Below, in pieces: positions 7,639-29,818 of a stretch of 64,000 nt of DNA. Numbering within the stretch: position 1 is the stretch's first letter; each line of letters starts with the position of its first letter. The notes under the pieces were generated by a model, which was given only the letters and a program-made list of their open reading frames with translations, ran no database searches and had not been told where the DNA came from. The translations under genes were made by a program, and so were the position numbers. Origin of the DNA: Chryseobacterium sp. (GTDB taxonomy: Bacteria > Bacteroidota > Bacteroidia > Flavobacteriales > Weeksellaceae); contig JAITMC010000011.1 in assembly GCA_031277615.1 (NCBI GenBank), positions 108,341-172,340 on the forward strand. The letters run 5' to 3'.

Positions 7639-7644
7639 GTTATT

Positions 7645-10600: not shown

Positions 10601-10776
10601 TCAACTTCAAAATCTAGGGTTTGTAGGCCTATAGCAGCTTCTTTAGCTTTGAGCAAGATTTCATTAGTTCTTTCAAGAGTAAATTTATTGGTTTTTAGAG
10701 TTTGTCCTTCAAAACATTTAACAACAGCGTTAACTGCTTGTATTTGAAATTCTTGCTCCTTAAATTGTAACTTCAT
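7645..10776 (-). CDS. res: Type III restriction enzyme, helicase/endonuclease subunit (Res)
   Basis: A 1043-residue subunit of the type III restriction complex. The N-terminal superfamily 2 motor has Walker A ETGTGKTYTYI near residues 111-121 and the DExx box IIIDEPQ near 234. The second lobe carries FSHSALKEGWDNPN and RRQEVGRGMRL. The C-terminal PD-(D/E)xK nuclease is visible as PDWAIV (P973-D974) followed by VAETKG (E992, K994). All catalytic elements are present, so the enzyme should be active. It is the first gene of the operon, and its promoter region carries a short inverted repeat (10789-10813). The partner Mod starts 6 bp downstream. Confidence 0.93.
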   Translation of the reverse strand: MKLQFKEQEFQIQAVNAVVKCFEGQTLKTNKFTLERTNEILLKAKEAAIGLQTLDFEVEEQIGYRNSSIQITDKQIFDNIVNVQREHYLIENKNIDTVKGVNIGHNFTIEMETGTGKTYTYIRTMYELHKQYGWSKFIIIVPSIAIREGVFKTFELTQNHFQEIYGHKISPFIYNSSRPQDIETFASDNRISVMVINTQAFAAKGADARRIHQELDHFGSRRPIDIIAQTKPIIIIDEPQSVGKVGSITLKSMEDFNPLFTLRYSATHSEEYNKIFRLDALDAYNRKLVKKIQVKGINLKGSSGTTGYLYLEHISLSSNKPPLAFLEYEQRAGNGVKRVREKIAQGTDLYEVSGGLPAYKNCLVTEVNGYLNKIVVNGQDIYPGDIVNDKDELAFRRIQIRETILSHLQKEKYLFEKGIKVLSLFFIDSVEKYRKYNEMGEEEPGEYAQIFEEEYKNAINEFIDLFHQDYTDYVIETDTNKMHKSYAPGNYLEYLQRDDADLVHNGYFSIDKKGKPVDPTIKRGSEDSDDASAYDLIMKDKERLLSFKEPTRFIFSHSALKEGWDNPNVFQICALKNVDSGSQTRRRQEVGRGMRLAVDKRGVRQDFELVGDQVHDINMLTVIASESYENFAKGLQTEIAKSLKDRPVNADVKFFFGKVLTNEMGENIRLTEEDAKKLNKFLYKHDILDEDDKITAEGKEQIEKNEAPVPEYLTAFATAINQLLQTIYNGEGFKPDDDRNAVPLAVNQNFAKKEFQELWKKISLKSVYEVKFDTEKLIEDSKIRINADLHISERKYEIKTGEIHEIDKEDLKDGTAFKVTKTDPKKLSSDLYTQVAYDIVGEIEALTNLKRSTIVNILKKMNSEKFFLLRKNPEEFIAKCARLINETKASLIINNIAYHKTEESFDAKTVFTNVKNVQRSDELLKKHIYDFLETDSKIEREFTHNLEQATEVVVYAKLPKGFYIATPVANYSPDWAIVLDNEKVKHIYFVAETKGSEDANDLRGIEQLKIHCAKEHFKSISNGEVKFDVISSYSKLLDIAQLK

Positions 10777-10923: not shown

Positions 10924-11475
10924 TTAAATAGATTTAGGATATTGATCCATATTAACGCTCCTACCCATCCACCTCCTCAACCTCCAAACCGGCAAATACA
11001 CAAACACCACAGACAGCACTCCCGCCAATACTCCCACCACCACAGCCATCGCCTCACCATCCAGCTTATAATCCTTTGATAAATTAAACTGTCCCACAAA
11101 CAACAAACATAACACCAGTGAACCGGAAACCAAACCATGTAAAATGCTCAGTTTGGTCATTAGTTTTTTAATATTCAATTGCTCATCTACGGTAAACTCT
11201 ATGGCTTCCTGATTGGCGGCATCGGTGACTCTTTTGATGATGTCAATGGTGAGGACTACCGGAAGAAAGATGGCCATGGGCAGAGTGAGCCGGGCCAGGT
11301 TCTGTTCGCCGGAGAAAAAATGGGTGTAGCCCAATTCTTTGAAGCTGGCATAGGCAATGATGAAATTGAAAAATACATTGGGAAGGACGTAGTAGATCGT
11401 GCGCTTTAATAAAAAGCGTTTGAGGGTGGTTTTTTTGAGTTTTTTGGGTTGTGGGAGCTTTATTTTAAATTTCAT
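10924..11475 (-). CDS. Four-helix membrane protein, last gene of the glycolipid/polyketide operon
   Basis: I do not recognise the family. The 183 residues begin with a very basic tail (KFKIKLPQPKKLKKTTLKR) and show about four hydrophobic segments near 31-50, 66-84, 112-130 and 141-163. There are no obvious catalytic motifs. Its ATG overlaps the stop of the preceding acyltransferase gene (ATGA), so translation is coupled and the protein very likely serves the same pathway. A role as membrane anchor for the acyltransferase or in handling the lipid product is inference. Confidence 0.65.
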   Translation of the reverse strand: MKFKIKLPQPKKLKKTTLKRFLLKRTIYYVLPNVFFNFIIAYASFKELGYTHFFSGEQNLARLTLPMAIFLPVVLTIDIIKRVTDAANQEAIEFTVDEQLNIKKLMTKLSILHGLVSGSLVLCLLFVGQFNLSKDYKLDGEAMAVVVGVLAGVLSVVFVYLPVWRLRRWMGRSVNMDQYPKSI

Positions 11476-12728
11476 ACGGGTTGGGTCAGGAATTCCAGGG
11501 CTTTATCTTTGATGGCTGTAGCTTCCGCTTTCGGAAGGAAATCTTCGTGGGAGATGAACATAAAATCCATCTGTTGATTGAAGGTGGTCGCCACCAGCGT
11601 TGTTGAGTTCAGCCACGGGAAGGCTACCGTCGGGCTGAAGATGGTTTCCACTTTAAAACGGCTGTACTCTGCCGGAATATTGAGTTTCCCCATATTGGAC
11701 AGCGTCACATCATGGCCTCCCCTGCCCGATTTCAGCAGGCTGATCATCCGTTCAACGATCGGATGCATCTGTTCGCCCATCCACAGCAGTTCGCGGGCCT
11801 GCATCTTTTCTATTTTCAGGCCCAGCTCTTTTTTGATCTGTCTGGCGTTGTGCACCACATCCCGGCTCCCTTTTTTAATGGAAAGTTCAACGGTAGGCGC
11901 AAATGCAAATACATGATCCTGTCTGATCTCCGGAATGAAATGACGCACATCCACAGGACTGATCACTTTCCCTTTGGCCTTACTACCCTGCTTCTCCTGA
12001 AAAGCCTGCATAAAAGAGGCACACAGCAGTGCATGCACAGAAATGCCATGCGCTTTACAGGTGGCTGTAATCTGTGAAGTGGTTTCAGGATCCAGTTTCC
12101 AGTGTACGGCGTAGTTTTTTCCGAGATTTTTCTGTTGGCTTTTCCGCTGCATCAGGAAAAACAGCTTCGCCATGAGCAGGTACAGCCTGGCATTGCGTTT
12201 CTTTTTTTTCAGATCAAAATCTGCGGGCAGGAAATCATTCACCGAACCGAATGCTTCATAGGGCTTCAGTTCAGCAGAAGGATCATCGAGCAGTATGAGG
12301 AGTTCGCGCATCAGGGTGACCAGCGATCCGCCGTCGCAGAGGCAGTGAGGCATTACCCAAAGGATTTCGGATCTGTTTTCGCCTTTTACCCATACCAGCT
12401 GGGCCAGTGGCTTTTTTTCATCCTCAAACAGGCGGAACCATTCTTTTTCAGATTCCTTCATCCAGTCATCATCCGACTGTCTTTCCACAATACGGAGAGG
12501 AATCGGGTCTATTTCCCGGTCTTCAATATAAACCGGATATTGTTCGGTTTTGTGATCAATCCGGGCTCTCAGCAAAGGATGTTTCTGCTGGATTTTAGCC
12601 AGGGCAGCCGTAAAGTTGGCTTCCGGAATATCACCGGAAATTCTGGCTGTAAAGATACAGTTGACAGGCGTTTCAGGATCTACATACATGATCCTTTCCA
12701 CCATCATGAGTCTGCGTTTCATCATCAT
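11472..12728 (-). CDS. Condensation-fold acyltransferase (PapA/wax-synthase-like), second copy
   Basis: A 418-residue protein of the CoA/ACP-dependent acyltransferase superfamily (NRPS condensation domains, PapA5, chloramphenicol acetyltransferase fold). The active-site motif reads P127-H-C-L-C-D-G133. The catalytic second histidine (H128) and the Asp-Gly of HHxxxDG are kept, but the first histidine is proline. PapA-type enzymes move an acyl chain from a carrier protein to a hydroxyl of a lipid or sugar. The gene overlaps its homologous neighbour upstream by 4 bp and the membrane protein gene downstream by 4 bp. Similar length and shared motifs (ARxxHDxK, CLCDGGS, DVRHFIPxI) show the two acyltransferases arose by duplication. 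The acceptor is inferred to be the glycosylated product of this operon. Confidence 0.82.
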   Translation of the reverse strand: MMMKRRLMMVERIMYVDPETPVNCIFTARISGDIPEANFTAALAKIQQKHPLLRARIDHKTEQYPVYIEDREIDPIPLRIVERQSDDDWMKESEKEWFRLFEDEKKPLAQLVWVKGENRSEILWVMPHCLCDGGSLVTLMRELLILLDDPSAELKPYEAFGSVNDFLPADFDLKKKKRNARLYLLMAKLFFLMQRKSQQKNLGKNYAVHWKLDPETTSQITATCKAHGISVHALLCASFMQAFQEKQGSKAKGKVISPVDVRHFIPEIRQDHVFAFAPTVELSIKKGSRDVVHNARQIKKELGLKIEKMQARELLWMGEQMHPIVERMISLLKSGRGGHDVTLSNMGKLNIPAEYSRFKVETIFSPTVAFPWLNSTTLVATTFNQQMDFMFISHEDFLPKAEATAIKDKALEFLTQPV

Positions 12729-13993
12729 GCTTCGATATCTTGCAGTTGTTTTGTAATGATCTGAAGGACCTCATCGCGGATGGCCATAGCCTCCGTATAC
12801 GGCAGGTAGCCTTCACTTCCCATCATGGAAAAGTCCATTTCATCCCTGAAGGTGGAAGCCACCATCGTGGTGGTATTTCCCAAAGGGCCAATCACCGAAG
12901 GGCTGAAAACCGTTTCCAGTGTAAATGCTTTATATCCATGAGGAATCTGAAGTCGTCCCAGGTTGGAAAACATACAGTCGTTGGACGATTTTCCGTGCTT
13001 TAAAAGCCTGGTGAAGTTTTTCAGCGCATCGTGGGCCGATTCCATTACCATCATCGTCATATAGGGATTAAGCTTAGAAGTTTTCCGGGCTACCGCTTCC
13101 TGCATTTCCCAAAGGTCTTCCAGGAAACTGATTTTTTCATTGGCCGAAACAACGATCATTAATCCGAAAGCAAAAATATGGTCGTTTTTGATCTGCGGGG
13201 TAAACCTTCTGATGTCTACCGGGCAGGAAACCTTATTGAAGGCCGCTGCTCCCCTCACCTTCCTGAAGGCACGAAGGACGGCTGCACTTAAAAAGGTATT
13301 GACCGTAACGTTCCGGGATTTGCAGTATGCAATAAGTCCCGAGCTGATGTCCTTATTCAGCTTCCAGTGGATCAGGTAATCATTTTGCCGGTCTACCGCC
13401 TTTTTCCCGACAGGAATACATCTGATGCCTGTTGCGGCAAGCCTTCCGATAAATTTCGCTTTGAACTGCTGTCTGCGGCTGGCCAGAACAGCAGCCGGAA
13501 CCACGTCCTGAATGCCCAGAATAGGAGTCTCGGTGCCGATATCTGCGGAAGGATTATCCAGAACCTGTAAGAATTCATAGAGGAAGCTCATCGCGGAACC
13601 GCCATCACACAGGCAATGGTGGAATGCAAACAGCATATCGGAAACCTCCTCCCCTTTGATCCAGATAAAACGGATCAGGGGCAGTTTTTCATAGGGAAAC
13701 AGGGTCTTCCATTCTTTCATGGATTCCTCCTGCCACTGGTCTTCATTTTGACGGGCAACAATGCGTACCGGGATAGAGATGGGCTGTTCCGGAACTTCAA
13801 ACCAGGGCACTTTTTTTTCATCATGAGTGATGAGCGCCCTTAACCATGGATGCTTCTCCTGAATCCGGGCCAGTGCCTGCTGAATTTCTTTCAGCGTAAA
13901 TGTCCCTTTCAGTCTGAAAGGGATCACCGCATTGAACGGTTCTGTTCCGTCTCCCAGTAACATTCGTTCGCCAAATAACAATCTTCTTTTCAT
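12725..13993 (-). CDS. Condensation-fold acyltransferase (PapA/wax-synthase-like), first copy
   Basis: A 422-residue relative of the next gene in the operon, with the full HHxxxDG motif at H125-H126-C-L-C-D-G131; H126 is the predicted general base. The N-terminal half starts RRLLFGERMLLG and the C-terminal half contains CPVDIRRFTPQIKNDHIFAF, as expected for the two chloramphenicol-acetyltransferase-like lobes. It has no signal peptide or membrane segment and should act in the cytosol. It starts 8 bp after the glycosyltransferase gene and overlaps the second acyltransferase by 4 bp. Two divergent copies suggest two acylation positions, or one active enzyme and one with altered acceptor choice. 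Substrates are not deducible from the sequence. Confidence 0.83.
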   Translation of the reverse strand: MKRRLLFGERMLLGDGTEPFNAVIPFRLKGTFTLKEIQQALARIQEKHPWLRALITHDEKKVPWFEVPEQPISIPVRIVARQNEDQWQEESMKEWKTLFPYEKLPLIRFIWIKGEEVSDMLFAFHHCLCDGGSAMSFLYEFLQVLDNPSADIGTETPILGIQDVVPAAVLASRRQQFKAKFIGRLAATGIRCIPVGKKAVDRQNDYLIHWKLNKDISSGLIAYCKSRNVTVNTFLSAAVLRAFRKVRGAAAFNKVSCPVDIRRFTPQIKNDHIFAFGLMIVVSANEKISFLEDLWEMQEAVARKTSKLNPYMTMMVMESAHDALKNFTRLLKHGKSSNDCMFSNLGRLQIPHGYKAFTLETVFSPSVIGPLGNTTTMVASTFRDEMDFSMMGSEGYLPYTEAMAIRDEVLQIITKQLQDIEA

Positions 13994-14001
13994 AAATTAT
14001 A

Positions 14002-16398
14002 CTAAGCTAATGTGGAATGTTCCTGTACAAAGTTTTCCAGCAATTCTACTGCTTTATCATTACCTCCGGCAAGATGGAAAGTATTTTGAACCTCCTTCGC
14101 AGCTGCTCTGTATTTAGGGTTTTCCAGTAATTCAAAAACAGTTTCACGAAGAGCCTCTACACGAAGTCTTTTGTATCGGATGCTGATTCCGCAGCCTGCC
14201 TGCTCAATTAATTTCGCAATATGGAAATGGTCGTAAGCGATAGGCGTGATTAACATCGGTAATCCATTACGGAAAGTATCATTCACCGTATTGAAACCAC
14301 CGTGGCAGATCACCATATCCATTCTCTGCATCACCGCAGATTGAGGTACGAAACTGTTCACAATAAAGTTCTCCGGCCATTCTTCAAAGATTTCCGGTGG
14401 AGTAGCGGCAATCACTGTTACCGGCTGGTCTTTAAATGCTGCGATGATCTTTTCGAAGAAAGCTTTTCTGATGTCTACCAATAAAGTTCCCAATGATACG
14501 AAGATCTTTGGTGTGGTAGATGCATTTAATTTATCCCAGTCAAATGGCGCATCGTTCGGACGGCCTTTTACCGGGCCTACAAATTTCATGTGAGATGGTA
14601 CGGTATCAAAACCTGCAAAAGCCTGTGAAGTAAAGACCATATTTAGTTTATGAGAATGAATGTAAATACCTTCCTCATGAATGCCTACTTCTTTTTGTAG
14701 ATCTTTGATCAGGTTTTGCTGCCATTCCCAGATTTTTGGGGCACTTTTTTCAGTGTCTCCCATCACATCCGGTGGAACGGGTGTTGTGGTTACACAAGGA
14801 ATATTATGCTTGTGAGCGAAAAGCGCACCTCCGAAAGTGATACAGTCGTTCACGATTACATCAGGCATCCAGCTTTCTGTTAATCGGGTTAATCCCGGCA
14901 TCATCATTTTGGCGAAAGGAACATACGTCTCTTCCAGTGCTAATTTCATCACTTCAGGACCTGAACATGCAGGTCCGTCATCCTGTCTTTTTAAAATGCG
15001 GGCAATTTCTTCCTGATACGGAACAAGATCTTCTTCAGGATAGAAGTAAGAACCTCCTTCCGGAATATGTTTGCTGTCTAAAGGCGTAATTCCGAACCAT
15101 TTTACTTCATGGCCACGGGCAATCAGACTGGCACCCACACTTAATGTAGGGCTCACATGTCCGAAAAATGGCGGAACAACGAATAAAAATTTAGATGGTT
15201 TTTCTGGTTTTGAAGCCTTTGTAATGGCTTCTTCCAATAAATTAGCTGCTGTAGATGCTCCTCCTGCTTCCATAAAAGATTGTCCTACTTTTTGAGCTGC
15301 CTCACGGTAGCCCGGGTTATTTAATATTTGTTGTACTGCCTCTCTCAGATGATTGGCTTTAAATCTGTTGAAATTAAGTCGTTCACCTGCTTCCGTACGC
15401 ACCACACGTCCTGCAACGTGCGACTGGTCATACGCGATAGGAATGACGACCAAAGGAATCCCGTTGGATAAGGTTTCGGAAACGGTATTGTGACCGCCAT
15501 GGCAAACCACCCCATCAAGATGAGGTAACAGATCCAATTGCGGAACCTGCTGATAAACCATAAAGTTGTCCGGCCACTGCTCGAAAAGCTGTGGGTCAGA
15601 AACTACCACAACCGTTAAATCTTCATCTTTAAAAGCATCAACTACCTTTTGGAAGAATGCTTTTTTATGATCGTGATCGAAAGTCGTTCCGATACTTACT
15701 AAAATCTTTTTGTTGGTAGCACTTTTTAATCTGTCCCAATCGAATTCACAAGAGATACGACGTTCAGTAAGAACGGGTCCCGTGAATTTGTATTGAGGTT
15801 CCAGATCTTCCATTTCCCCAAAGAAATAATTCGAGGTTAAAACAAGGGTTAAAAGATCTGAAGTGGCCAGAGAACGCTCTTCATTAAAGCCTAGTTCTTT
15901 CTGTAGATCAATGATCTGATTGACTTCCCATTCGTGAACTTTAGGCAGTTCATTCATGATTTTAATGGCAGCCGGAGCGGTAACGGAAGTCGCACAAGGA
16001 ATTCCTAATGCTTTGGCAGCTACCGGAGCTGCAAATAACTGATGGTCACCGATGATTAAATCGGGTTGATAGGTCTTTAATAAAGCAACAATTCCATTAT
16101 AGCAATGTCTGTTTAGAGGAATAAGAACTTCCTCGTAAAGGAACTTCACGCTGTCTATTCCGTACACTACTTTTTTGGAAATAATATCAAGATATTGTTC
16201 GCTTTCTTTCTTTTCTGCGTCGGTCTGATCGTATTGGATCAGTAATAATTTTCCGCCCTCCGGAAGTTTCGCCTCTAAAGTCGGGTCAAGGCTTATCCAT
16301 GCTACTTCGTGCCCTCTTTCCAACAGTGTAGCACCGATGCTTAGGGTAGGGTTGACATGTCCTGTCAAGGGTGGAACTATAAATGCAAATTTAGCCAT
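14002..16398 (-). CDS. Tandem-fused GT1-type glycosyltransferase (two complete copies)
   Basis: A 798-residue protein made of two homologous halves, each the size of a complete MGT/UGT-type glycosyltransferase (about 400 residues). The N-terminal signature GHVNPTLS (H14) recurs as GHVSPTLS (H414), exactly 400 residues later; this histidine is the usual catalytic base. Each half has its own donor-binding motif: VCHGGHNTVSETLSNG in the first and VICHGGFNTVNDTFRNG in the second. Both halves therefore look intact and could transfer two sugars or form a pseudo-dimer. GT1 enzymes use nucleotide sugars on lipid or polyketide acceptors; zeaxanthin glucosyltransferase CrtX is a relative, but no carotenoid gene is nearby. 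The start overlaps the hydrolase gene by 8 bp. The acceptor is inferred to be the megasynthase product. Confidence 0.9.
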   Translation of the reverse strand: MAKFAFIVPPLTGHVNPTLSIGATLLERGHEVAWISLDPTLEAKLPEGGKLLLIQYDQTDAEKKESEQYLDIISKKVVYGIDSVKFLYEEVLIPLNRHCYNGIVALLKTYQPDLIIGDHQLFAAPVAAKALGIPCATSVTAPAAIKIMNELPKVHEWEVNQIIDLQKELGFNEERSLATSDLLTLVLTSNYFFGEMEDLEPQYKFTGPVLTERRISCEFDWDRLKSATNKKILVSIGTTFDHDHKKAFFQKVVDAFKDEDLTVVVVSDPQLFEQWPDNFMVYQQVPQLDLLPHLDGVVCHGGHNTVSETLSNGIPLVVIPIAYDQSHVAGRVVRTEAGERLNFNRFKANHLREAVQQILNNPGYREAAQKVGQSFMEAGGASTAANLLEEAITKASKPEKPSKFLFVVPPFFGHVSPTLSVGASLIARGHEVKWFGITPLDSKHIPEGGSYFYPEEDLVPYQEEIARILKRQDDGPACSGPEVMKLALEETYVPFAKMMMPGLTRLTESWMPDVIVNDCITFGGALFAHKHNIPCVTTTPVPPDVMGDTEKSAPKIWEWQQNLIKDLQKEVGIHEEGIYIHSHKLNMVFTSQAFAGFDTVPSHMKFVGPVKGRPNDAPFDWDKLNASTTPKIFVSLGTLLVDIRKAFFEKIIAAFKDQPVTVIAATPPEIFEEWPENFIVNSFVPQSAVMQRMDMVICHGGFNTVNDTFRNGLPMLITPIAYDHFHIAKLIEQAGCGISIRYKRLRVEALRETVFELLENPKYRAAAKEVQNTFHLAGGNDKAVELLENFVQEHSTLA

Positions 16399-17173
16399 GG
16401 TTCTTCGTTAAAATATTAGATAAAAACTGAGCGATCGTCTCTGCAATAAGCTGAGGTTCCTGAATCGGAATATTGTGATCGCCCGAGATTAGTTCAAGTT
16501 CGGATGAACCGATTTGAGACTGCAGCCACTCTCCTGTAGGTCTGCAGTTGGAATCAGCACCATAAAGCAATAAAGTGGAAGCTGTCAATCCATTGAAATC
16601 GGCTTCCCCAAGGAAATGTTTTTCCTTAATCATATCTGCTTTGATGCTGGTTTGATTAAACAGAAACTCATACATACGATGGTTCTTTTCCATTTGTCTT
16701 TTGCCCATCTGGACTTTGGTGGTATCTGTAAAATTGGCTACATAATGTTCAAGGAATTCCTTGCTGTATTCATCAATGATGTTACGGGCTTTTTCGTCCT
16801 GCGGGTCCGGAGCTTCCATTACCACCAGTTGATTAATGCGTTCAGGATATGTTAATGCTGTTTTCAAAGCAATAAGACCGCCGAAGCTATAGCCTGCAAG
16901 ATGTACTTTTTCCAGTTGAAGGTGATCTATTAAACCTATCAGATCGGATGACATGTTATCAAGGTCGTATCCATCCAAAAAGCGTTCACTCATACCGTGA
17001 CTTTTCAAATCGTACATCACCACATGGAAATGTTTTGCCAGAATAGGGGCAATATTAAAATAATAAATGGACAGGTTACTGAACATACCGTGGATTAAGA
17101 CCACGGTTTGTTCGGCTCCTTTATTGAGTTCCTGTATATGAACTTGTCTGTTATTGACAGTGATTATTGGCAT
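16391..17173 (-). CDS. Alpha/beta hydrolase, possible thioesterase or acyltransferase
   Basis: A 260-residue alpha/beta-hydrolase. The nucleophile elbow is G-Y-S96-F-G-G, the acid is probably the Asp in LLYGADSNCRP, and the histidine lies in SGDHNIPI. The oxyanion-hole HGMFSN segment is near residue 28. It overlaps the free ACP gene by 10 bp and the glycosyltransferase by 8 bp, so it is translationally coupled to both. Neither megasynthase has a visible terminal thioesterase, so this stand-alone enzyme is the best candidate to release the chain from the ACP or pass it to an acceptor. That role is inferred; a proofreading hydrolase is the alternative. Confidence 0.8.
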   Translation of the reverse strand: MPIITVNNRQVHIQELNKGAEQTVVLIHGMFSNLSIYYFNIAPILAKHFHVVMYDLKSHGMSERFLDGYDLDNMSSDLIGLIDHLQLEKVHLAGYSFGGLIALKTALTYPERINQLVVMEAPDPQDEKARNIIDEYSKEFLEHYVANFTDTTKVQMGKRQMEKNHRMYEFLFNQTSIKADMIKEKHFLGEADFNGLTASTLLLYGADSNCRPTGEWLQSQIGSSELELISGDHNIPIQEPQLIAETIAQFLSNILTKNHG

Positions 17174-17463
17174 TCGTAGATATAATTGATGATCATACTA
17201 AGGTCAAGATTAATAAGCTGGTCAAGATCCATAGAAGATAACCAACCTGTAAAGTCGATCTGATCGCCAAAATGCGCCTTGATCTTTTCAGAGAAAGAGA
17301 CAATCTCGATGCTGTCCATTTCAAGATCTTTGGTGAATGAACTTTCCGGAGTAATGTCCATCTCCTCTACAAATTCAGCCCCAATCACTTCAGTAATAAA
17401 ACCTTTTAATAAAGTAAAAAGTTCTTCGTAGTTCATTTTTAATGTTGCGTTTACAGTGTCCAT
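17164..17463 (-). CDS. Stand-alone acyl carrier protein
   Basis: A 99-residue acyl carrier protein. The phosphopantetheine attachment serine is S51 in DLEMDSIEIVSF, the usual DSxx context at the start of helix II. The protein is acidic and of normal ACP length. It overlaps the second megasynthase gene by 13 bp and the hydrolase by 10 bp, so it belongs to the pathway. Together with the two ACP domains of the first megasynthase it is the third carrier of the system. It could hold a starter, carry the finished chain to the glycosyl- or acyltransferases, or be loaded by the phosphopantetheinyl transferase fused to the neighbouring protein. Confidence 0.9.
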   Translation of the reverse strand: MDTVNATLKMNYEELFTLLKGFITEVIGAEFVEEMDITPESSFTKDLEMDSIEIVSFSEKIKAHFGDQIDFTGWLSSMDLDQLINLDLSMIINYIYECQ

Positions 17464-20400
17464 CCGATAATATAATTTTTATGTTTAACAGTTTTGATTT
17501 CAATATTGTTGATCCACAAGTGATCGTCTTTTATTTGTTCGACTTCGAAGGCTTTTGGATTTCCCTTCAGTCCGGTTCCTAAGAACTTTCCGTAGGCTTC
17601 TTTGGCTACCCAGAAACGGGTGGTCCATTCTGCCTGGTCTTTTCCTTTTAATAAGGCTAATTCATGGTCTGTAAATACCAGATCATAGAATCCTTCGCTG
17701 CGTTCTTCCATGATTTCCATATCAATTCCTACAGATTTGCCATATCTCGCAATTCCCACAGCTTCTTTTCCTTTGTGAGCCAATGAAATATGGATGTCTT
17801 CTGTAAAATCACTGATGAGGTAAGGTTTCCCCACTTCATCGGAACGGATCTCAAAGGTGATCGGGAAGCAGGCATGATTTTTTTCCTTGCGAAGAAGGTT
17901 TCTCACGGCGTCTTTCACTGCCACACGGCTTACCATCCAGTTTTTCTTCTTGTTCGGTAATAATTGCTGGTGATGCTGTTTTTCCGTTTGGTTGAAATAT
18001 CTTTTCAGGATAAAATCCCATGAGGCAACTCTTGTGTATGCCTGATGGAAGAAAAATACTTCCGGAGCAATCTCTTCAGAAAGGCGGTTGTGCAGTGGCG
18101 ACATGGAAACATTCCATAAAGCGGCATCAATTTCCAGTCTTCTGTTCTGCCAGCCTGTGATGGCGCACCATACTTTTCCGTCTCTTTTCAAAATGATATC
18201 TGCGATGGCAAATTCATCATTCAATTCGGTCAGCATACAGGTACATTCAAAAATACCATCCTGATCGTGCATATCGCCAAAGAATTCAATATTTCTGATC
18301 TTCACCGGGAAGGCGATACGGTCTTTCACTAAAGTAAGCTGCAGCCAAAGCCCGAATAACTGTCCGGCATTGTCCAGCAGAGAGCCTTTTCCGCCGTTTC
18401 CTTTGATCTTTCCAATGATTCCTTTGTTTCCAACCGCTGAAACTTCCGTAATTCCCTGGTATTTTTCCCCATGGAACATGTGGGCGTCATAGATTTCTTC
18501 AGGCGTTCTTTCAATCGGTAAAAGATCACCAATGGAAAGGTTGAAGGTTGGAGTAGGAACAGCTGATGATTTTAAGATCACTTCTGCATTGGCGAAGTTT
18601 TCAATATCCAAATACGCATGGTTTTCGCCACGCCATTGTCCTTTCACAGTTTTCTCAAAAGGCTGGGCAACGTTCATCCATTGGAATACACTTACGTTCA
18701 TGATTTTATGAACCTGTGTTCCCGGAATTTCTGCTTCTGCAATTTCTGCAAGCTGCTCAAAGATCATGGTCATCGGGATTACTGGTTCCATATCCGCTAC
18801 ATGAGCCCATCCTTTTGACTGTCTCAATAAGCTGTGGTCAATCAGATACGGATGACTTTCAAGCGTAACATACAGATCTTTTGAGAAGGTTGTACTTCTC
18901 GGCGCTTGTGGAGCGGCATATTGTGCTACAGGAGCAACCTGAGCAGGACGTGGTATCGTAATTTCCGGACGGTTCTGGAATAAAGTCAGGACTTCTTCCT
19001 GCATACGGATCATATCGTTAACATTATCCTGGAATGCCTGTACCAGCGGATGACCACTTTTTGCAGTTATGGCTGAAGCTGAGGCGGTGTATTGTTTTGG
19101 TGTTTCAAAGGCTTGAGCTAAGGCTTTTATTTCTTTAAAATTTCTGATGATAGGCGAACCTAATTCCAGTTTAATGCCTTTTCCTGATACTTTTTTTGAT
19201 TGCTGCTGAACTTCTAAGAAATCAAGAGCAATGGTTTTCCCTTCTACAAATAATGAAGCGACAACACGTTGTAGCTGTGCCAATGCAGAACGGGCAGGAA
19301 CGCTGGAAGGAATGGTGCTGAATGCTTTTCCTTTCAAGGTATCATCAATAAATCCGATCAGACCACCGGTACCCACCTGAATGAATACTCTGGCGCCTTC
19401 TTCGTATAGTTTATCCGTCAGTTCACGGAAACGGACAGGCTCTACCAAATGCTCTGCACTCAGTTTTCTGATCGCTGCCTGATCTGCCGGATAAGGTTCT
19501 AAAGTCGTAGCAGACCATAATGGAATCTTCGTTTTCTGGAACTGTGCTTTTTCCATTCCGGCAAGGATCACATCCAGTTTATCAGCGATAAATGGAGAGT
19601 GAAATCCGGATTGGAAAGGCAGTACCTGATGGAAGATCTGTTTTGATTTTAATTGTGGAACCAATTCATCCAATGCAGCATTGCTCCCGCAAAGAATGAC
19701 CTGATTAGGGCAATTGTCATTGGAAATATATAGGTCTGAAATTTCAGCAATAAAAGACTGTACGACATCAATTCCGGCACCGATGGCAATGAATTTGGAA
19801 TCTTTTAATTCAAAAGTTTCCGGGTTCAGCACATCGATTAAGGCTTTTACAGAATTGGCTTCTGCTAACTCTGATGAATATCCTGCCAGCCATTCTCCTA
19901 AACTGTGCCCGGCATTCATATCCGGGATAATGCCCAGTTTCTTCAATGAATTGTCAAGGATACTGCAATTATTGAAGATGTTTAAAGCATCGGTTAAAAG
20001 ACCTTCACCTTCGGTTTCTATAGGCGCTGTTAATCCGAAATAACGGCTTACACTTTCCACTTCACCTTTTGCCAGTCCATCCAAACCAGGGAATACAAAG
20101 GCTACTTTCCCGCCATCTTTTAATAATGGGGTAGAAGTGTACCAGATGTCCTGCTTGTTTTTCCAGATCAGGTTTTTAGAAACGATTTTAAGGGCTTTTT
20201 CTATTCTTGCAGGTGTAGGATCGAATATGGCTACTCTGAAATCTCCTTCTCCTAAAGTGGTATCGTTATTTTGTAATGCAGAAACCAATTCTTCATGCGT
20301 AGGTCTGGCCAATAGCAATACCTTGTCTTTTTTAGGCATATCATAGCCTTCAAGAACAACGTGTGCATTGATTCCTCCAAACCCGAAAGCATTAACCGCT

Positions 20401-21716: not shown

Positions 21717-21735
21717 GTTTAGTGTATACAGAGGG

Positions 21736-24700
21736 TTACCAATTATTTCCTGACATGATAAGCACCTGGCTTTCAGTTCCGTATTTTATTTCGTTAAGGA
21801 AGATTTCTTTTCCTTCATCCAATGGGATCATGGAAATTCCTCTGCGTTCGTATTCAGACTCAAGGGTGGAAGAAACCATTCCTGCTCCTTTCCAAGGTCC
21901 CCAGTTGATGGAGATTACTTTTCCTTTTAATCTTTTATTCAGAGCGTTAGCGTAATCATCCAGTACACTGTTGGCCGCAGCATAATCTGTCTGGCCTTTG
22001 TTACCGTATACCGATGCGATACTTGAGAATAATACCACGAACTGGCAGTCTGTACGAAGCTGTTCAGCCAATACACGAAGTGGTTTTACTTTGGTATCGA
22101 ATACACGCCCGAATGAGGAAGTGGTTTTTTGTTTGAATAATTTATCTTCTAAAAGACCTGCTCCGTGGATCACTCCATCTAAACGGCTGTATTTTTCATA
22201 AATACTGCTGATTAGGTTGCTTAATCCTTCTTCATCACAAAGATCTAATGATTGATAAATAATTATGTTTCCAAGCGCTTCCATATCACGGATCGTGCGT
22301 AGGATTTGATTATTTTTGAAAACTTTTGTGGTTTCTTTTTCAATTTCAGCAGGAGAAGTGAATTTTCCGGATTTAATCAGATAAGCTCTGATTTCTTCCT
22401 TGGTTTTCATTCCTTCGAATTCTTTTGCAGAAGCTTCATTTCTTGGGTCTGCTGATCTTCCAACTAAAATATAAGTACATGGATAAGCCTGAGACATATG
22501 TTTCACTAACTCTGCAGTGATTCCCTGTGCACCTCCAAGTACCAATACCACTGATTTCTGATCTAAATGAATGTGTGCTTCATTTAAACTTGTCGACAAT
22601 GGCGAAGGGATAATATCTACCTTATGTCTTGTTTCGTTTTTATAAATCACTTCAGCAGGTTTATCATTGGTAAGAATTTCCTTTAAAGTAATTTCAGCGA
22701 TCTGATCTACTTCCTGAGGAGTACTTAAACTGATTAATCTGCAAATTGTATGATCGAATTCTCTTGCTAAGCTTTTGAATAGTCCAGGGTAACCTTGGTG
22801 ATGACGTAATACACGAGCATCAGTTACTTCCTGAATATGAGCTGCAATATCAGAGATTAAGTATACCCATTTTGCTTTATCAAAATCAAGTTTTTTAATT
22901 AAATCAACGTGATCGATGATGCTTGGTTTATCTGTAGCTGAGAATAGATCTAGCATGATGAGTCCATCAACATTAGAAAGATCTTTATCTGCCTCTACCA
23001 ATTCTACGATAGCTCCATGTTTTTCCAATTCAGCTTTAATTGCTGAGGTTTGTTTACCGTCATCCTGAGTGATGGCGAAACGCTTTCCCTGAAGAACCTC
23101 TGTATTCTGTACTGAAGAAGCATCTGTAGGCGTGATGTCAAAACGAAGACGTGATAATACATTGTTGGTTGGTTCAGAAGTTACTTCTTCCTTTACTTCA
23201 TTTTTTGTTTCAGCAGTGTCACCGCTCATTTCACTGATCCAGCTTGCCAATCCGCGAAGGGTTTTAATGGCTGCTAATTTTTCCATCACATCATCTGCCT
23301 GCTCAAGATTTTCTCCGAAACCGATCTTGTTTTTAAGGTCAGCAATGATTTCCATACGCTTGATAGAATCGATACTAAGGTCTGCTTCCAAATCTAAGTC
23401 TAGACCTAGCATTTCTTTTGGATATCCCGTTTTTTCACTTACGATATTCAGGATAGCATTTTGAAGGTCTTCTAATGATAGAGTCGCTTTTGCTTGTGGT
23501 TTCGAAGTCGCTTCAGCTGAAGTTGCGTTGTTTTCAGGGGTTGCCGGTGCTGCATCTGCTCCTGAGAATTCAGTAAGCCATGAAACTAATCCGCTCAGGG
23601 TTTTGATGCCTGCCAATTGTTCCATTACCATATCTTCATTGGTGTTGCCTTTAGCTAATGTTCCCAATTCGTTACGAAGAGTTCCGATGATTTCCACTCT
23701 TTTGATAGAGTCGATACTTAAATCAGCTTCAAGGTCCATTTCCATACCCAGCATTTCCTGAGGATATCCTGTTTTATCACTTACAACCTGTAGTAATAAA
23801 GCTTTGATATCTCTTGTTGGAGCGGCTTTTACCGCAACGGCAGCAGCTGTAACGGCAACTGTTGTTGCTTGTTGAACCTGCTGTACAGGGGTTGTACGTT
23901 CCGGAGAAGGAGCTGGCATTGGCGTATTGTAAACAGGCATTGGGTTTACCTGAGGATTCTGTCCCATAAAGGATAGCATCACATCACGTTGTGCCTGTAT
24001 CATGAGTTTCATACTGTTTAAATATTCCTGCAGCATACGTTCAGCTGTAGATAAGCTTTCCGGTGCAGGAGCTTGCGTATTATGAGTCGTAAAATTGTTC
24101 ATAGGAATAGGATTTATGATAGGGAGTGCACCATTAGCAGGCAATGAACCTGTTGTCGGATGTGCGGCTTGTCCGTTAACACGCCAGATGGCAGGGCTTT
24201 TTTTGTACAGTTCAGGCTGATTGATATCAACAAGCTGAACGAAACGTCCATCGAAAAGTTTCTCAATATTAAAGTTGCGGCCTGTTCCTAAATACTGTGC
24301 CAACATGCACAATAAATGAGTGAACTTATTACGGCTGCTGTCTTCAACATATAAAGTCAACTGGTCTTTTTCAATACATGATTTTGCCAATCCTGTAAGG
24401 ACTTTTCCTGGTCCTACCTCGATGAAGATTCTTGCTCCGTCGTTGTACATCGCTTGCATCTGCTCTACGAATCTCACAGGCTGTACCAGGTGATCAGTCA
24501 GTCTGTCTTTGATGTCTGAAGGATTCGAAGGATATACGTTTGCTGTTGTGTTAGACCATACAGGGATCTGCATTTCCTGGAAAGGAACATCTTTTAGTAC
24601 ATCAGCATATAAACCTTTAGATTTTGCCAATAATGGGCTGTGGAATGCACATGCCACTTCTAATTTTTTAGCAGAAATACCTTCCTGTTTAAGCACTTCC

Positions 24701-27700
24701 AGCAGTTTATTGATGGCTTCTGTACTTCCGGCGATAACACATTGAGTAGGCGCGTTGAAATTAACAGGATAGCATCCTTCCACCTTAGCAATGATCGGCT
24801 GTAAACGTTCGTGAGTAGCGCTTGCAGCTAACATAGAACCCGGATCACCACCTTCTACTGAGTTTAGGATAGATTGAGCTCTCTGAATACTTAAATCAAC
24901 CAGTTGATCTTCTGCAAATACACCTGAGAAACATAAAGCCGGTAATTCACCATAGCTGTGGCCTGCCAGCATATCAGGAATAATTCCTAATGATTCTAAG
25001 AATTTAGCCAATGCAAGATCAACAATTCCTAAAAGCGGCTGTGCTAAACGGGTATCTTTTATGGTTTCTTTCTGTTGCTTTAAATCCGCTTCACTAAATG
25101 TTGTAGAAGGGAAAACTACTTTTTCAAGCTCAGGATAGTTATCGATAATCTTACGCATAGCCGGGAAAACTACGAACAGATCACGGGCCATATTGATTCT
25201 CTGGCTTCCTTGTCCTGGGAATGTGAAGGCTACTTTACCTTCTTTTTTACTGACAGTGAAAGTATCTTTAGTCTCTATTCCTAGCAATACTAATTCAATC
25301 TTCATCATCAGATCTACAGCGGTATCAGCTACGATACTGAACTGAATCGGTTTTTCTGAATTGATGCTTAAACTGTAAGCAATATCTTTTAATGGAATCT
25401 CATCGTTGATTTCCAATAATGTTTTGATCTGGCTTGATTGACTTTTGGCTTCTTCATAAGTATCCCCACGGAATACAAATAATTCTGAAGGCCAGGACTG
25501 CATCGCAATTGAGTCATCTTTTTTCGGATGGTTCGCAATTACAGTGTGGAAGTTTGTTCCGCCAAATCCAAAGGCACTGATTCCTGCATAACGGTTTTTT
25601 TCAGTCCATAATCCCGTTTCCGCATGGAAAGAGAATGGGCTGGTTTGTGCGTTATAATAAGCGTTCGGATTCTTAAGGTGAAGAGTAGGAGGTTTCACAC
25701 CATGGTAAACAGCAAGAGAAGCTTTGATTAAACCTGCTAAACCTGCAGCACACTTGGTATGTCCGATCTGAGTTTTCACAGAACCTAAATGCGTCTGTCC
25801 CGGTAATGCTCCTGAACGGCTGAACAGATTGGTTAAGGCACTTAATTCTGTTTTGTCTCCAACAACAGTTCCGGTACCATGAGCTTCTACCAATCCGACT
25901 GCTGCCGGACTAATACCAGCTTGGGCATACGCACGTTCCAAAGCACGCTCCTGCCCTACTTTCCGTGGAGCCGTAAGCCCCAGGGCTTTTCCGTCACTTG
26001 ACCCTCCTACTCCTTTGATTACGGAATAGATACGATCTCCATCACGAACAGCGTCGTCGTATCTTTTTAAAACAAGAATAGCAACGCCTTCTCCCAAAGC
26101 AATTCCATCGGCATCACTATCGAATGTTGCACATCTTCCTTTTCTGGAAAGGGCGTGCGTACTGGAAAACATCAGATAATCGTTGATTCCGTTATGCAAA
26201 TCAGCACCTCCGGCAAGAACCATATCGGATTTCCCCAATACAAGTTCCTGACACGCTAAATCAATGGCTGCCAGAGAGGAAGCACAGGCTGCATCTACAG
26301 TAAAGTTTCTGCCCCCGAGATCCAGACGGTTCGTAATCCTACCTGCGATCACATTGGCCAAAATACCAGGGAAAGAGTCCTCAGTGGTGTGTGGTAAGGC
26401 TTCTTTTACTTCTTCGTGAAGTTCTCCGAAAACCTGCTTATAATATCCTCTGAAACTATAGCTGTTGGCAAGGTCATTCCCTCCTTCAGCTCCAATAATT
26501 ACAGAAATATTTTCTCTATTCGTGTGTTTTTCACCATACCCTGCATCTTCCATTGCCCGTTTTGCGACCAACAGCGTTAGCAGTTGCGTAGGTTCAATAG
26601 CAGCCAGGGATTGTGGGGGAATGCCAAATGCCAGCGGATCGAAATCGACTTTCGGGATAAATCCACCCCATTTGGAGTGGGATACATCCGGCTCATCCGA
26701 ATCCGGGTTGTAGTATAGGTCTTTATTCCATCTTTCATCCGGAACTTCTGTTACGCTGTCTTTTCCAAGAATAATATTACGCCAGTATTCCTGAAGGTTT
26801 TTAGCTCCCGGAAAAATACATTCCATTCCGATAACGGCTATATCCAGTGGCTTTTCTACGGATACCGGCTGTTCCGGAAGTTCAGCATTTCTGATATATT
26901 CGTAATTATCAACACTTACATTCTGATGAAGTGAATCCAGGGTAATCACGCGGTCGTGCATCGTAGCCACCTGCCCTATCATATACATTCCCAGATCCAG
27001 CTGGTCATTCTTTGGAATATGTACCAGTTGATCGCCCTGACGTTCTACGCCTTTGGCAGCAATTCTCAGACGGCCAACATTTAATTTTTCAAGTTTCTCC
27101 CAGACTTCTTTTTTATCTGTTCCCGCAGCAAGCAGTTTTGCTTTTTCGGCATTGAAATGATGCGCAAAAACCGTATTCAGACAACGGGTTTCATGGCCGG
27201 GCGCAGTTTCCAGTAAAACCGTATCTTTCGCCTGCATGGCCTGAAGCTGGAATTCTTCCTGAATGGCTCCGGTAAGAACCGCCTCCTGGGTATACAGATA
27301 AGCCGTTCCCATCAGCACTCCTACTTTTACACCTCTGGCCGCCAATGGCGCAGCCATCACAGAAACAAATGCTGTTGAAAAATCATTATGGATTCCTCCT
27401 GCAAAAAACACACTGATCTTTTCAGGATGCTCTTCTTTTAAAATCCGTTCGATCTGTTTTTCCCAAAGCACCATGCTTGAAAGCGGTCCCACATGGCCTC
27501 CACATTCTCTTCCTTCAAAAATAAAGTTGGTCGCTCCTTCTTTCAGAAAAATATCTAATAAGGCAGGAGACGGAACGTGCAGAAATGCTGTAATGCCTGC
27601 TTTCTCAAATACTTTAGCCTGTGCGGGTCTTCCACCGGCAATCAGAACAACAGGAGGTCTGGCTTCCAGAATATAGGAGGTCTGCTCTTCTCTGAGTTCC

Positions 27701-28779
27701 TGAGGGGCAAATCCTAAGATCCCTACGCCCCAGGTTTTTTCACCGGCCAGTTTTTTGGTTTCCATAACCAAGGATCTTGCTGCCGCTCCTTTCAATAGGG
27801 ATAAGGCTACAAACGGTAATGCCCCGGCTTCCGCAACGGCATCAGCAAATAACGGAACGTCGCTTACACGGGTCATCGGCCCCTGAGCAATAGGATAACG
27901 CAGGTTAAACTGCTGCGCCATTGTATTGTTTTCGCTGATCACCTGAAGGGTTTTTGCCTGTTTCAGATGGCCATACATCGCTTCTTTGAATCCGAAGATC
28001 AGCTTTTTCAGGCTTTTGAAGTCCTGATACAGATCCACAGCCAGAGCAATATCCTGCCCCATCGGAATATAATCAGTATTCAGATCGAAGCCGTTAAAAT
28101 ATTCCGTAAGCTCCTCCGCTGTAACATTTTCCGGTAATGCAGGTGAGTTAGGTCTTACCAATACCCGGTGACCGGCAATAATTCTGGTTTCTGTGCCATT
28201 CAATTTGGAACAGAGTTCTTTAATATCCTTCGGAACAGTACTTTCGGGAAACAAAGCAAGCTGGCTGTCGAGCACGACTCCTGCAGCTCCTAACGCCTTG
28301 ACTGCCGCTGCGGTATGAAGACCTATCCCTCCCTGTACCCAGACAGGAATAGTACTGATCTTGCTGATCACTCTCTGAAAGAGTACAAATGTTGATTCAT
28401 AGCCTACCAGTCCGGCAGCTTCGTTTCCTTTAACAATAATTCCTTTCGCCCCCAGTTCTTCTGCTTTGATGGCTTCTTCAAGACTGCTCACCTGGCAGAT
28501 TACCGACAGATGTGTAGCAATGTTCAGGGAAACTCCACAAGGAAGGATAATAAATTTTACTTTTTCCGGAATCCGGAGGGATAAGAACCGGTCGTCAGTC
28601 AGACAAATACCATAAGAAGGCATATCGGTCTGGTCAAGCTGATCCAGCGCTTCCTGAGCGGCGGTTAACTCATATCCTAAATGTAAAACGGGAAATGCAC
28701 CCGCCTGATGTAATCCCGGCAAAAGATTCACATCGGGTCTTTCAAAGGGTGTTAATCCAATAATGGTTAAGTTTTTCAT
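21736..28779 (-). CDS. Megasynthase 1: PfaD-like ER-KS-AT-ACP-ACP-KR
   Basis: A 2347-residue type I fatty-acid/polyketide synthase and the first gene of the operon. Residues 1 to about 285 resemble a nitronate-monooxygenase-type TIM barrel with degenerate motifs (EAAGLVG, QGGIG). Residues about 290-620 form a second barrel with canonical PIAQGPM and ECGGHVG, like the PfaD enoyl reductase. The ketosynthase (about 642-1090) has triad C832, H967, H1007. The acyltransferase has S1275 in GHSYGE. Two ACP domains carry S1691 and S1805, each in LSIDSIKR. The ketoreductase (about 2070-2340) has GGAQGI and a YAAAN active-site region. Except for the N-terminal reductase this is PfaA order, with only two ACPs where PUFA synthases usually have four or more. 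It works with megasynthase 2, which supplies DH and the phosphopantetheinyl transferase. Confidence 0.9.
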   Translation of the reverse strand: MKNLTIIGLTPFERPDVNLLPGLHQAGAFPVLHLGYELTAAQEALDQLDQTDMPSYGICLTDDRFLSLRIPEKVKFIILPCGVSLNIATHLSVICQVSSLEEAIKAEELGAKGIIVKGNEAAGLVGYESTFVLFQRVISKISTIPVWVQGGIGLHTAAAVKALGAAGVVLDSQLALFPESTVPKDIKELCSKLNGTETRIIAGHRVLVRPNSPALPENVTAEELTEYFNGFDLNTDYIPMGQDIALAVDLYQDFKSLKKLIFGFKEAMYGHLKQAKTLQVISENNTMAQQFNLRYPIAQGPMTRVSDVPLFADAVAEAGALPFVALSLLKGAAARSLVMETKKLAGEKTWGVGILGFAPQELREEQTSYILEARPPVVLIAGGRPAQAKVFEKAGITAFLHVPSPALLDIFLKEGATNFIFEGRECGGHVGPLSSMVLWEKQIERILKEEHPEKISVFFAGGIHNDFSTAFVSVMAAPLAARGVKVGVLMGTAYLYTQEAVLTGAIQEEFQLQAMQAKDTVLLETAPGHETRCLNTVFAHHFNAEKAKLLAAGTDKKEVWEKLEKLNVGRLRIAAKGVERQGDQLVHIPKNDQLDLGMYMIGQVATMHDRVITLDSLHQNVSVDNYEYIRNAELPEQPVSVEKPLDIAVIGMECIFPGAKNLQEYWRNIILGKDSVTEVPDERWNKDLYYNPDSDEPDVSHSKWGGFIPKVDFDPLAFGIPPQSLAAIEPTQLLTLLVAKRAMEDAGYGEKHTNRENISVIIGAEGGNDLANSYSFRGYYKQVFGELHEEVKEALPHTTEDSFPGILANVIAGRITNRLDLGGRNFTVDAACASSLAAIDLACQELVLGKSDMVLAGGADLHNGINDYLMFSSTHALSRKGRCATFDSDADGIALGEGVAILVLKRYDDAVRDGDRIYSVIKGVGGSSDGKALGLTAPRKVGQERALERAYAQAGISPAAVGLVEAHGTGTVVGDKTELSALTNLFSRSGALPGQTHLGSVKTQIGHTKCAAGLAGLIKASLAVYHGVKPPTLHLKNPNAYYNAQTSPFSFHAETGLWTEKNRYAGISAFGFGGTNFHTVIANHPKKDDSIAMQSWPSELFVFRGDTYEEAKSQSSQIKTLLEINDEIPLKDIAYSLSINSEKPIQFSIVADTAVDLMMKIELVLLGIETKDTFTVSKKEGKVAFTFPGQGSQRINMARDLFVVFPAMRKIIDNYPELEKVVFPSTTFSEADLKQQKETIKDTRLAQPLLGIVDLALAKFLESLGIIPDMLAGHSYGELPALCFSGVFAEDQLVDLSIQRAQSILNSVEGGDPGSMLAASATHERLQPIIAKVEGCYPVNFNAPTQCVIAGSTEAINKLLEVLKQEGISAKKLEVACAFHSPLLAKSKGLYADVLKDVPFQEMQIPVWSNTTANVYPSNPSDIKDRLTDHLVQPVRFVEQMQAMYNDGARIFIEVGPGKVLTGLAKSCIEKDQLTLYVEDSSRNKFTHLLCMLAQYLGTGRNFNIEKLFDGRFVQLVDINQPELYKKSPAIWRVNGQAAHPTTGSLPANGALPIINPIPMNNFTTHNTQAPAPESLSTAERMLQEYLNSMKLMIQAQRDVMLSFMGQNPQVNPMPVYNTPMPAPSPERTTPVQQVQQATTVAVTAAAVAVKAAPTRDIKALLLQVVSDKTGYPQEMLGMEMDLEADLSIDSIKRVEIIGTLRNELGTLAKGNTNEDMVMEQLAGIKTLSGLVSWLTEFSGADAAPATPENNATSAEATSKPQAKATLSLEDLQNAILNIVSEKTGYPKEMLGLDLDLEADLSIDSIKRMEIIADLKNKIGFGENLEQADDVMEKLAAIKTLRGLASWISEMSGDTAETKNEVKEEVTSEPTNNVLSRLRFDITPTDASSVQNTEVLQGKRFAITQDDGKQTSAIKAELEKHGAIVELVEADKDLSNVDGLIMLDLFSATDKPSIIDHVDLIKKLDFDKAKWVYLISDIAAHIQEVTDARVLRHHQGYPGLFKSLAREFDHTICRLISLSTPQEVDQIAEITLKEILTNDKPAEVIYKNETRHKVDIIPSPLSTSLNEAHIHLDQKSVVLVLGGAQGITAELVKHMSQAYPCTYILVGRSADPRNEASAKEFEGMKTKEEIRAYLIKSGKFTSPAEIEKETTKVFKNNQILRTIRDMEALGNIIIYQSLDLCDEEGLSNLISSIYEKYSRLDGVIHGAGLLEDKLFKQKTTSSFGRVFDTKVKPLRVLAEQLRTDCQFVVLFSSIASVYGNKGQTDYAAANSVLDDYANALNKRLKGKVISINWGPWKGAGMVSSTLESEYERRGISMIPLDEGKEIFLNEIKYGTESQVLIMSGNNW

Positions 28780-29386: not shown

Positions 29387-29818
29387 TTATGACGGCCGGT
29401 TCTGTTCCAGTTCTTTGATGCGGCGTTTGATCTCCTTTCGCAGCCTTATGCTTTCCTGATATTGTTTTTTCTTCAGATGCTCAAGGAAATAAACCGTTAA
29501 CGCCCCTCCGAATACGGCAATTCCGATTTCAGAAATTACATCCAGAAGAACCCGATCGATGAATTCCCCGAAATCACCTTCAAAGAAATACCGGAGCAGT
29601 CTCGCTCCTACTGTCAGTACCAACCCAAGGATGAAGAAATACATTAAAAATTTTGAATGAAACTGTCCTTTATCAATCAACAGATCCAGTTCATGCTGAT
29701 TCTGCTGATAATATTGAACAATTTCATCGGTGATTTCGGGTTGTTTTCCAAAAAACGAGAATTCTGCCAGCTGATCTTCCAGTTTCATATTCAGTGGTGT
29801 TTGATTGTTTTTCCGCAT
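29387..29818 (-). CDS. Small two-helix membrane protein
   Basis: I do not recognise a family. The 143 residues have an amphipathic N-terminal part, hydrophobic segments near 56-76 and 88-110, and a strongly basic C-terminal helix (KKKQYQESIRLRKEIKRRIK). There is no signal peptide and no enzymatic motif. It lies 607 bp upstream of the megasynthase operon on the same strand and is separated by the long A+T-rich leader, so it is probably an independent unit. Codon use is like that of its neighbours. Confidence 0.6.
   Translation of the reverse strand: MRKNNQTPLNMKLEDQLAEFSFFGKQPEITDEIVQYYQQNQHELDLLIDKGQFHSKFLMYFFILGLVLTVGARLLRYFFEGDFGEFIDRVLLDVISEIGIAVFGGALTVYFLEHLKKKQYQESIRLRKEIKRRIKELEQNRPS

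Follow-up and report, generated by a model that had tools for sequence, protein, structure and literature searches.

A conserved eight-gene operon of Chryseobacterium joining a Pfa/Ars-like synthase to glycosyl- and acyltransferases, and its candidate lipid product

A 64,000-nucleotide stretch of DNA from Chryseobacterium sp. (assembly GCA_031277615.1, contig JAITMC010000011.1, positions 108,341 to 172,340; hereafter the window) carries on its minus strand eight genes, A to H, which are packed head to tail at positions 10924-28779 and encode a large iterative synthase, a hydrolase, a double glycosyltransferase (GT), two PapA-like acyltransferases and a membrane protein. What would such a set of enzymes make? 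Our analyses indicate that the eight genes represent a real and conserved orphan pathway, and their content leads us to favour, with slightly better than even confidence, the synthesis of a secondary lipid consisting of a long chain, two sugars and acyl groups, which would be located in the envelope or in the medium. No paper giving a product for this operon was recognised in the literature, most subscription papers lying outside our coverage. The original prediction, which had been made from the sequence of the window, found no matching compound, and this agrees with the absence of a characterised cluster of the same gene order from the sources that we searched (the MIBiG and antiSMASH databases are outside these).

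Conservation and distribution of the operon

The last 949 residues of B, which make up its acyltransferase (AT)-dehydratase (DH)-phosphopantetheinyl transferase (PPTase) part, were used to search 47 same-genus relatives and a further 31 genomes of the order that belong to other genera. Full-length B matches of 83-98% are present in 27 of the 47 relatives and in none of the 31 other genomes, where AT-like proteins matched weakly. In all 27 same-genus loci, A to H share a strand and keep their order, one locus (L072) being interrupted in A, E and F. Named contigs were additionally scanned with seven B sequences (AT-DH-PPTase part), yielding 149 relatives of which 80 were analysed; the two sets of loci share some species. 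All eight genes are found in order in 76 of these 80 loci, which belong to the genera Chryseobacterium, Flavobacterium, Sphingobacterium, Pedobacter and Mucilaginibacter; of the others, two reach the end of the stretch (L098 and L144), one starts inside B (L172) and one is without a detectable H (L167). Loci were picked by matches to A or B alone, and the presence of F, G and H refers to the fetched loci. The genes flanking A-H, compared by eye in 18 loci, vary between genera, so that A and H can be regarded as the ends of the operon. A chance neighbourhood is rejected by the synteny across loci, which together with the domain searches described below bears out the eight tightly coupled genes and the domain set of the original prediction.

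The DH-PPTase part of B was matched in 89 of 148 genomes of a genus sample (inferred to be Chryseobacterium), and the same 89 genomes give a strong match to E, partly in pieces, two more having E matches of only 26-29%. This shared occurrence of B and E accords with the glycosylated, acylated lipid that had been predicted, which is plausible and is the best reading. In wider samples, a B-length match was found in 4 of 395 genomes of the phylum (including the window's own, and one outside the genus), and a profile of residues 1-640 of A matched 2 of 395 genomes of the class, one being the window's own. Family samples gave the synthase in 7 of 151 genomes and, in another family with large genomes (possibly Chitinophagaceae), in 1 of 150, the latter with the whole operon. 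In a ketosynthase (KS) tree built from 24 rows, the window falls together with Sphingobacterium (92/81 support with KS1, 96/90 with KS2) and apart from Pedobacter and Mucilaginibacter, members of the same family as Sphingobacterium, with long branches elsewhere in the tree; this grouping suggests that the operon was transferred between orders. B and E of Flavobacterium seoulense (L133) share 96-97% identity with their counterparts in three Chryseobacterium loci (L134, L135 and L142), which suggests a recent transfer. The whole operon is also present in Sphingobacterium detergens (L146), a species studied for surfactants; its surfactant is termed a glycolipid in the accessible part of one paper (PMC8009627), a designation to which we give no weight.

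Among the eight loci from the two family samples, A-H is present in six. In the other two genomes, both of one genus (G959 and G950), A-B-C are ~55% identical to those of the window (C 70-72%) and are followed by a major facilitator superfamily (MFS) transporter and a desaturase of the fatty-acid/sphingolipid type with a sphingolipid-desaturase domain; D-E-F-G-H forms a complete operon of its own on the opposite strand, ~14 kb (G959) or ~20 kb (G950) from A-B-C, and G950 has a cyclopropane-synthase gene on the other strand near A-B-C. H closes the D-H module in the loci in which H was found. These separate, nearby operons establish A-B-C and D-H as two separable modules that still co-occur. 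The earlier expectation that the glycosyl and acyl genes would not occur apart from the synthases in related genomes is thus half refuted, as the two operons are separate and stay in the same neighbourhood. The MFS transporter and the sphingolipid-type desaturase (L191, 13404-16018; L194, 3344-7230), with the cyclopropane synthase in L194, represent another tailoring set around the same A-B-C core.

The synthase and its relatives

Gene A (21736-28779, 2347 amino acids (aa); all positions of genes and domains of the operon refer to the minus strand) is assigned by domain and TIGR02813 matches tandem FabK-like flavin mononucleotide (FMN) barrels, KS1, AT1, two acyl carrier protein domains (ACP1 and ACP2) and a ketoreductase (KR). 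The first barrel (27970-28779, ~aa 1-270) is nitronate monooxygenase-like (PF03060, 39.9 bits at aa 90-192; PDB 4iql at 90-197 with a profile built from 20 homologues), and the second (26920-27930, ~aa 284-620) is a FabK-like enoyl reductase (ER) (PDB 7l00 FabK, E 1.5e-22 at 284-557; PF03060). KS1 with its active-site Cys (25675-26844; PF00109/PF02801) has VDAACAS and EAHGTGT in 79 of 79 A proteins, identity and motif counts being limited here and below to sequences covering at least 85% of the query. The same 79/79 hold for the GHSxG motif of AT1 (24373-25227; PF00698) and for both copies of DSIK in the carrier domains (23317-23811; PF00550 in two stretches), which are followed by the KR (21889-22551; PF08659, 119 bits). 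Gene B (17451-21716, 1421 aa) has the order KS2-AT2-DH-PPTase in domain searches, with a double-hotdog DH of the polyketide synthase (PKS) type at aa 938-1197 (18126-18905) and a PPTase at 17481-17735 (PF01648, 51.4 bits; Sfp 1qr0, E 8.5e-6 with a profile). Gene C (17164-17463, 99 aa) encodes a free ACP (PF00550, 21.2 bits against a cut-off of 20.8) with LEMDSIE in 81 of 81 proteins.

The term "Pfa-type" that was originally applied to this synthase holds in the broad sense. The whole of A passes the PfaA model (TIGR02813, 1044.9 bits, cut-off 1010.1; best single stretch 697 bits, under the cut-off), and the KS, tandem ACPs and KR expected of a secondary lipid (Pfa-like) synthase in the broad sense are present. 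In its narrow sense the term fails. A chain-length factor is a KS-type domain without the Cys, and KS2 of B retains it (DAACAS in 80 of 80), hence lacking the chain-length-factor signature; B has a single PKS-type DH, against the two DH/isomerase domains expected in PfaC, and no FabA-type match up to E 5 in its aa 780-1285; and the PfaD-family ER model (TIGR02814) finds nothing in the genome at E 0.001, although A has FabK-like barrels. A plain polyunsaturated fatty acid (PUFA) synthase (PfaABCD) is rejected on these grounds, and from its sequence the enzyme should be called Pfa/Ars-like, without the features of a PUFA synthase.

Synthases of this kind were already known from the genus, and to that extent the novelty attributed to the flavobacterial operon was overstated. 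Shulse and Allen (2011; PMC3098273) defined a Type N Pfa-like synthase of unknown product from Chitinophaga pinensis and Chryseobacterium gleum, and the main text of that paper contains no term that starts with "glycosyl". Type N shares with our operon a Bacteroidota Pfa-like cluster and the genus of most loci, and the whole of A passes the PfaA model; the synthase described here is likely Type N, an assignment drawn from the genus, with the C. gleum and C. pinensis loci outside the comparison. Among plasmid records, the relative from a type whose product is known is that of Type P (ars), whose fatty acid synthase and DH-PPTase proteins in Beijerinckia are homologous to A and B. The synthase on the Beijerinckia indica plasmid is 40% identical to A over 1581 aa, the tandem FMN-barrel part of A being 40% identical over 98% of its length, and the DH-PPTase protein is 26% identical to the C-terminal part of B over 536 aa; a comparable synthase is present in Methylosinus, along with a KAS III-like gene and a PPTase protein. 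According to the accessible text of Shulse and Allen (PMC3098273), B. indica is a Type P member, the verified Type P product in Azotobacter (vinelandii) is the alkyl chain of phenolic lipids, such as C22 behenic acid, and no production of phenolic lipids is known from Beijerinckia itself. Type P clusters have type III PKS genes, of which there are none among A-H, whereas B here adds KS-AT, and GT and PapA genes stand in their place.

Plasmid records searched with the AT-DH-PPTase part of B gave 175 matches, two of which cover at least 80% of the query. Both are plasmids of Streptomyces sp. (NBC_00984 and NBC_01243) with the gene order A-B-C-D-E followed by a methyltransferase, identities to the window being 44% (A), 36% (B), 23% (C), 29% (D) and 33% (E), and 61% for KS1. 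These clusters have one GT against the tandem GT here and the methyltransferase in place of F-G-H, and no gene annotated as PapA lies beside their A-B-C-D-E. Both plasmids are linear, with IS3 transposase genes near the clusters (7446-22417 in L206 and 7431-22405 in L207). A Rhodobacteraceae plasmid (L210, 13653-28272) carries an A-like synthase, a TauD-like dioxygenase, a methyltransferase and a long PPTase protein, and a distinct PfaA-like synthase with an open frame of 2907 aa occurs in another Bacteroidota family (L215, genome G209).

Glycosyl transfer beside a Pfa-like synthase, which had been thought absent from classical Pfa clusters, is not without precedent, examples being the Streptomyces plasmids and the heterocyst glycolipid (hgl) islands, in which, as far as the accessible text goes, PUFA-synthase-like enzymes and the glycosyltransferase hglT lead to a long-chain glycoside (PMC11804610). 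The hgl islands have the export genes hgdBC, whereas domain searches of A-H found no ABC transporter; their accessible description mentions no PapA pair, and their likeness to A-H is one of description (PMC11804610). Fused pfaDA and pfaBC-PPTase genes are reported, in the accessible part of a 2026 paper, from two Flavobacteriales clusters that combine PKS with nonribosomal peptide synthetase (NRPS) genes (Aquimarina TRL1 and Flavobacterium N502540) and are likened to Renibacterium (PMC13291983); the fusion pattern is the same as here by description, with PKS-NRPS neighbours there. For C. herbae, an antiSMASH region labelled hglE-KS, T1PKS, terpene at 495,527-554,653 has, in the accessible text, no similarity to known clusters (PMC10459008). 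In the same strain (L127) our operon lies at 513,985-536,777 of contig NODE_2, and the region is thus most likely this operon. Our literature searches turned up no report of the A-E order across phyla, of a repeated exchange of acyltransferase genes, or of such a synthase in fixed combination with a pair of GT and a pair of PapA domains.

The hydrolase, the glycosyltransferase and the exchangeable acyltransferases

Gene D (16391-17173, 260 aa) encodes an alpha/beta hydrolase (PF00561, 75.4 bits) with GxSxGG in 80 of 80 proteins; a PDB search with D at E 1e-15 gave no match, and the 1551 plasmid records matched by D are uninformative. Gene E (14002-16398, 798 aa) encodes a tandem GT1 enzyme of the MGT/YjiC type (TIGR01426, 392.8 bits in two stretches, cut-off 260) with halves at ~15199-16398 and 14005-15207. 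YjiC structures in PDB match the first half, and the oleandomycin GT matches both. The HGG.NT box occurs twice in 67 of 67 proteins, each half of which also has GHV or GHI; we take the former to be the donor box and the latter the region of the catalytic His. After the HGG box the second half reads DH and the first DQ. In three loci (L190, L198 and L200) E is encoded by two open reading frames (ORFs), of 395 and 396 aa in L190.

Genes F (12725-13993, 422 aa, HHxxxDGG; PF00668, 45.1 bits) and G (11472-12728, 418 aa) encode PapA-like acyltransferases, with HxxxDG in 84 of 84 F (second copies counted) and 79 of 79 G proteins. For both, the top PDB match is a chain named phthiocerol/phthiodiolone dimycocerosyl transferase (8s6l; E 4.1e-13 for F and 2.5e-21 for G). 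The PapA_C model (PF16911, cut-off 30) is passed by G (44.1 bits) and not by F (25.2 bits), and against the NCBIfam PapA5 model (cut-off 396) G scores 36.8 and F 30.5 bits, far under. Thus F and G share with mycobacterial PapA proteins the condensation family, the HxxxDG motif and the 8s6l match, at low similarity. Gene H (10924-11475, 183 aa) encodes a membrane protein with hydrophobic windows near aa 70, 120 and 150 and has no Pfam or NCBIfam match at E 0.001.

The F-G-H segment (10924-13993) is apparently of foreign origin in the window strain, as judged from base composition and a drop in identity to relatives. The GC content at third codon positions is 54-56% in F, G and H and 36-41% in A-E, and DNA identity falls from ~91% to 75% at the E/F boundary in comparison with L160, and similarly with three other relatives. 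Between the window and its five nearest named loci, identity in B is 97-99%, whereas the nearest F is 81% and the nearest G 75% identical; in relatives whose B is 97-98% identical, F is at 76-78% and G at 67-68%. Independently of the window, L138 and L141 are 97-99% identical in A, B, D and E, with F at 82% and G at 72%.

Divergence at fourfold sites was compared in 60 close pairs (B difference of at most 25%; fewer where a gene is missing), an excess being at least 20 points above B; comparisons with fewer than 30 fourfold sites or less than 80% query coverage and the four loci with two F copies were excluded. An excess was found for F in 18/57 pairs, G 20/57, H 10/45, A 7/53, E 2/56 and D 0/57, and with the window removed in 11/50, 13/50, 9/40, 5/47, 2/49 and 0/50, respectively; the pairs are not independent, and the majority is without excess. 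Since silent sites diverge as well, a repeated swapping of F and G between strains by recombination would explain these patterns better than a fast evolution of the proteins. The four excluded loci (L136, L140, L161 and L162) carry tandem duplicates of F, so that the number of acyltransferases varies.

The predicted product and its alternatives

The favoured lipid would arise as follows. A, B and C would act as a self-sufficient iterative type I synthase with its own PPTase, building a long, mostly reduced acyl chain on the carrier proteins by means of the KR, the PKS-type DH and the FabK-type ER; the homology to the Type P synthase leads one to expect such a chain, and the desaturase beside A-B-C in the split genomes points to a lipid chain. 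D may free or transfer the chain, the two halves of E may attach two sugars in sequence to a hydroxyl or carboxyl of the chain, F and G may each place one acyl group on the sugars or the chain in the manner of PapA, and H would at most be presumed to serve as a membrane part. The outcome would be an acylated long-chain lipid with two sugars, and since recombination exchanges F and G, its acyl groups would be expected to vary from strain to strain.

Several points weigh against this proposal. The superfamily of D is very broad, with 17 matches in this genome including D itself; A-H contain no step specific for forming an acceptor hydroxyl and no recognisable exporter; and enzymes of the GT1 and condensation families also modify polyketides that are not lipids. 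The set of synthases behind the Ars-like interpretation of the chain is limited and leaves out PfaA and HglE proteins. The raised divergence in A and H noted above indicates an exchange wider than F and G. Both structure models are of low confidence as wholes: that of A 1-640 has a mean predicted local distance difference test score (pLDDT) of 53.4, no fold search having been made from it, and that of B 480-1421 a mean pLDDT of 49.7, with the weight carried by the DH region alone and the AT and PPTase parts barely probed in the fold comparison.

More tentatively, and well short of even confidence, the operon may be a Bacteroidota counterpart of polymorphic surface glycolipid systems, in which a constant core A-E, building one diglycosyl lipid, would be combined with a cassette of the acyltransferases F-G, in many cases together with H, that recombines among strains and species, so that an exposed lipid would vary by strain under diversifying selection, e.g. 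by phages or grazers.

The most serious alternative, which we regard as rather unlikely, is that the chain of the synthase is an acyl donor and not the aglycone: E would assemble a disaccharide on some other acceptor, and the ACP-bound chain together with a further acyl group would be transferred to this sugar by F and G, in the way that PapA proteins act in mycobacterial polyacyl glycolipids. PapA5 takes chains straight from a synthase ACP, and the two PapA-like enzymes, the free ACP and the dimycocerosyl transferase as best PDB match of both F and G are what this alternative would lead one to expect. The Streptomyces plasmids hold A-B-C-D-E without an adjacent gene annotated as PapA, however, and a replacement of F and G against a constant background of B, D and E is more in keeping with enzymes that decorate the product than with enzymes central to its assembly.

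Less probable again is a specialised metabolite, such as a glycosylated polyketide antibiotic, in place of a membrane or surface lipid. The macrolide-family score of E (TIGR01426), the iterative PKS character of the domains of A and the hglE-KS, T1PKS, terpene label given to such a region by antiSMASH in the accessible text (PMC10459008) speak for it, but the reductive loop is complete, the related Type P yields alkyl chains, a desaturase adjoins A-B-C in the split genomes and no resistance or export gene is recognisable among A-H. Two independent functions under a shared promoter, i.e. a lipid synthase A-C and a set D-H modifying another surface glycan, are very improbable, for the separate operons of G959 and G950 that would suggest them remain neighbours, the genes form a single operon elsewhere in the five named genera and homologues of D and E also trail A-B-C on the two Streptomyces plasmids.

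If the acylated diglycosyl lipid is indeed the product, 89 of 148 Chryseobacterium genomes (genus inferred) and scattered members of other families would have a dedicated pathway for it, the range of outputs of Pfa/Ars-like long-chain synthases would be widened and a PapA-type lipid acylation set would be placed outside mycobacteria. The presence or absence of the operon, its natural split into two modules and its exchanged acyltransferases provide ready comparisons for tracing the molecule and its role.

Around the operon, one weak Bacteroidota-like promoter motif lies upstream of A at 29084 (scored without a chance control), and beyond a gap of ~600 bases an ORF of 143 aa (29387-29818) has a weak RapH_N match under the cut-off. 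Directly downstream of H, an AT-rich segment (5719-10776) encodes DNA methylase and type III restriction-enzyme-like proteins (N6_N4_Mtase; ResIII and RE_endonuc).

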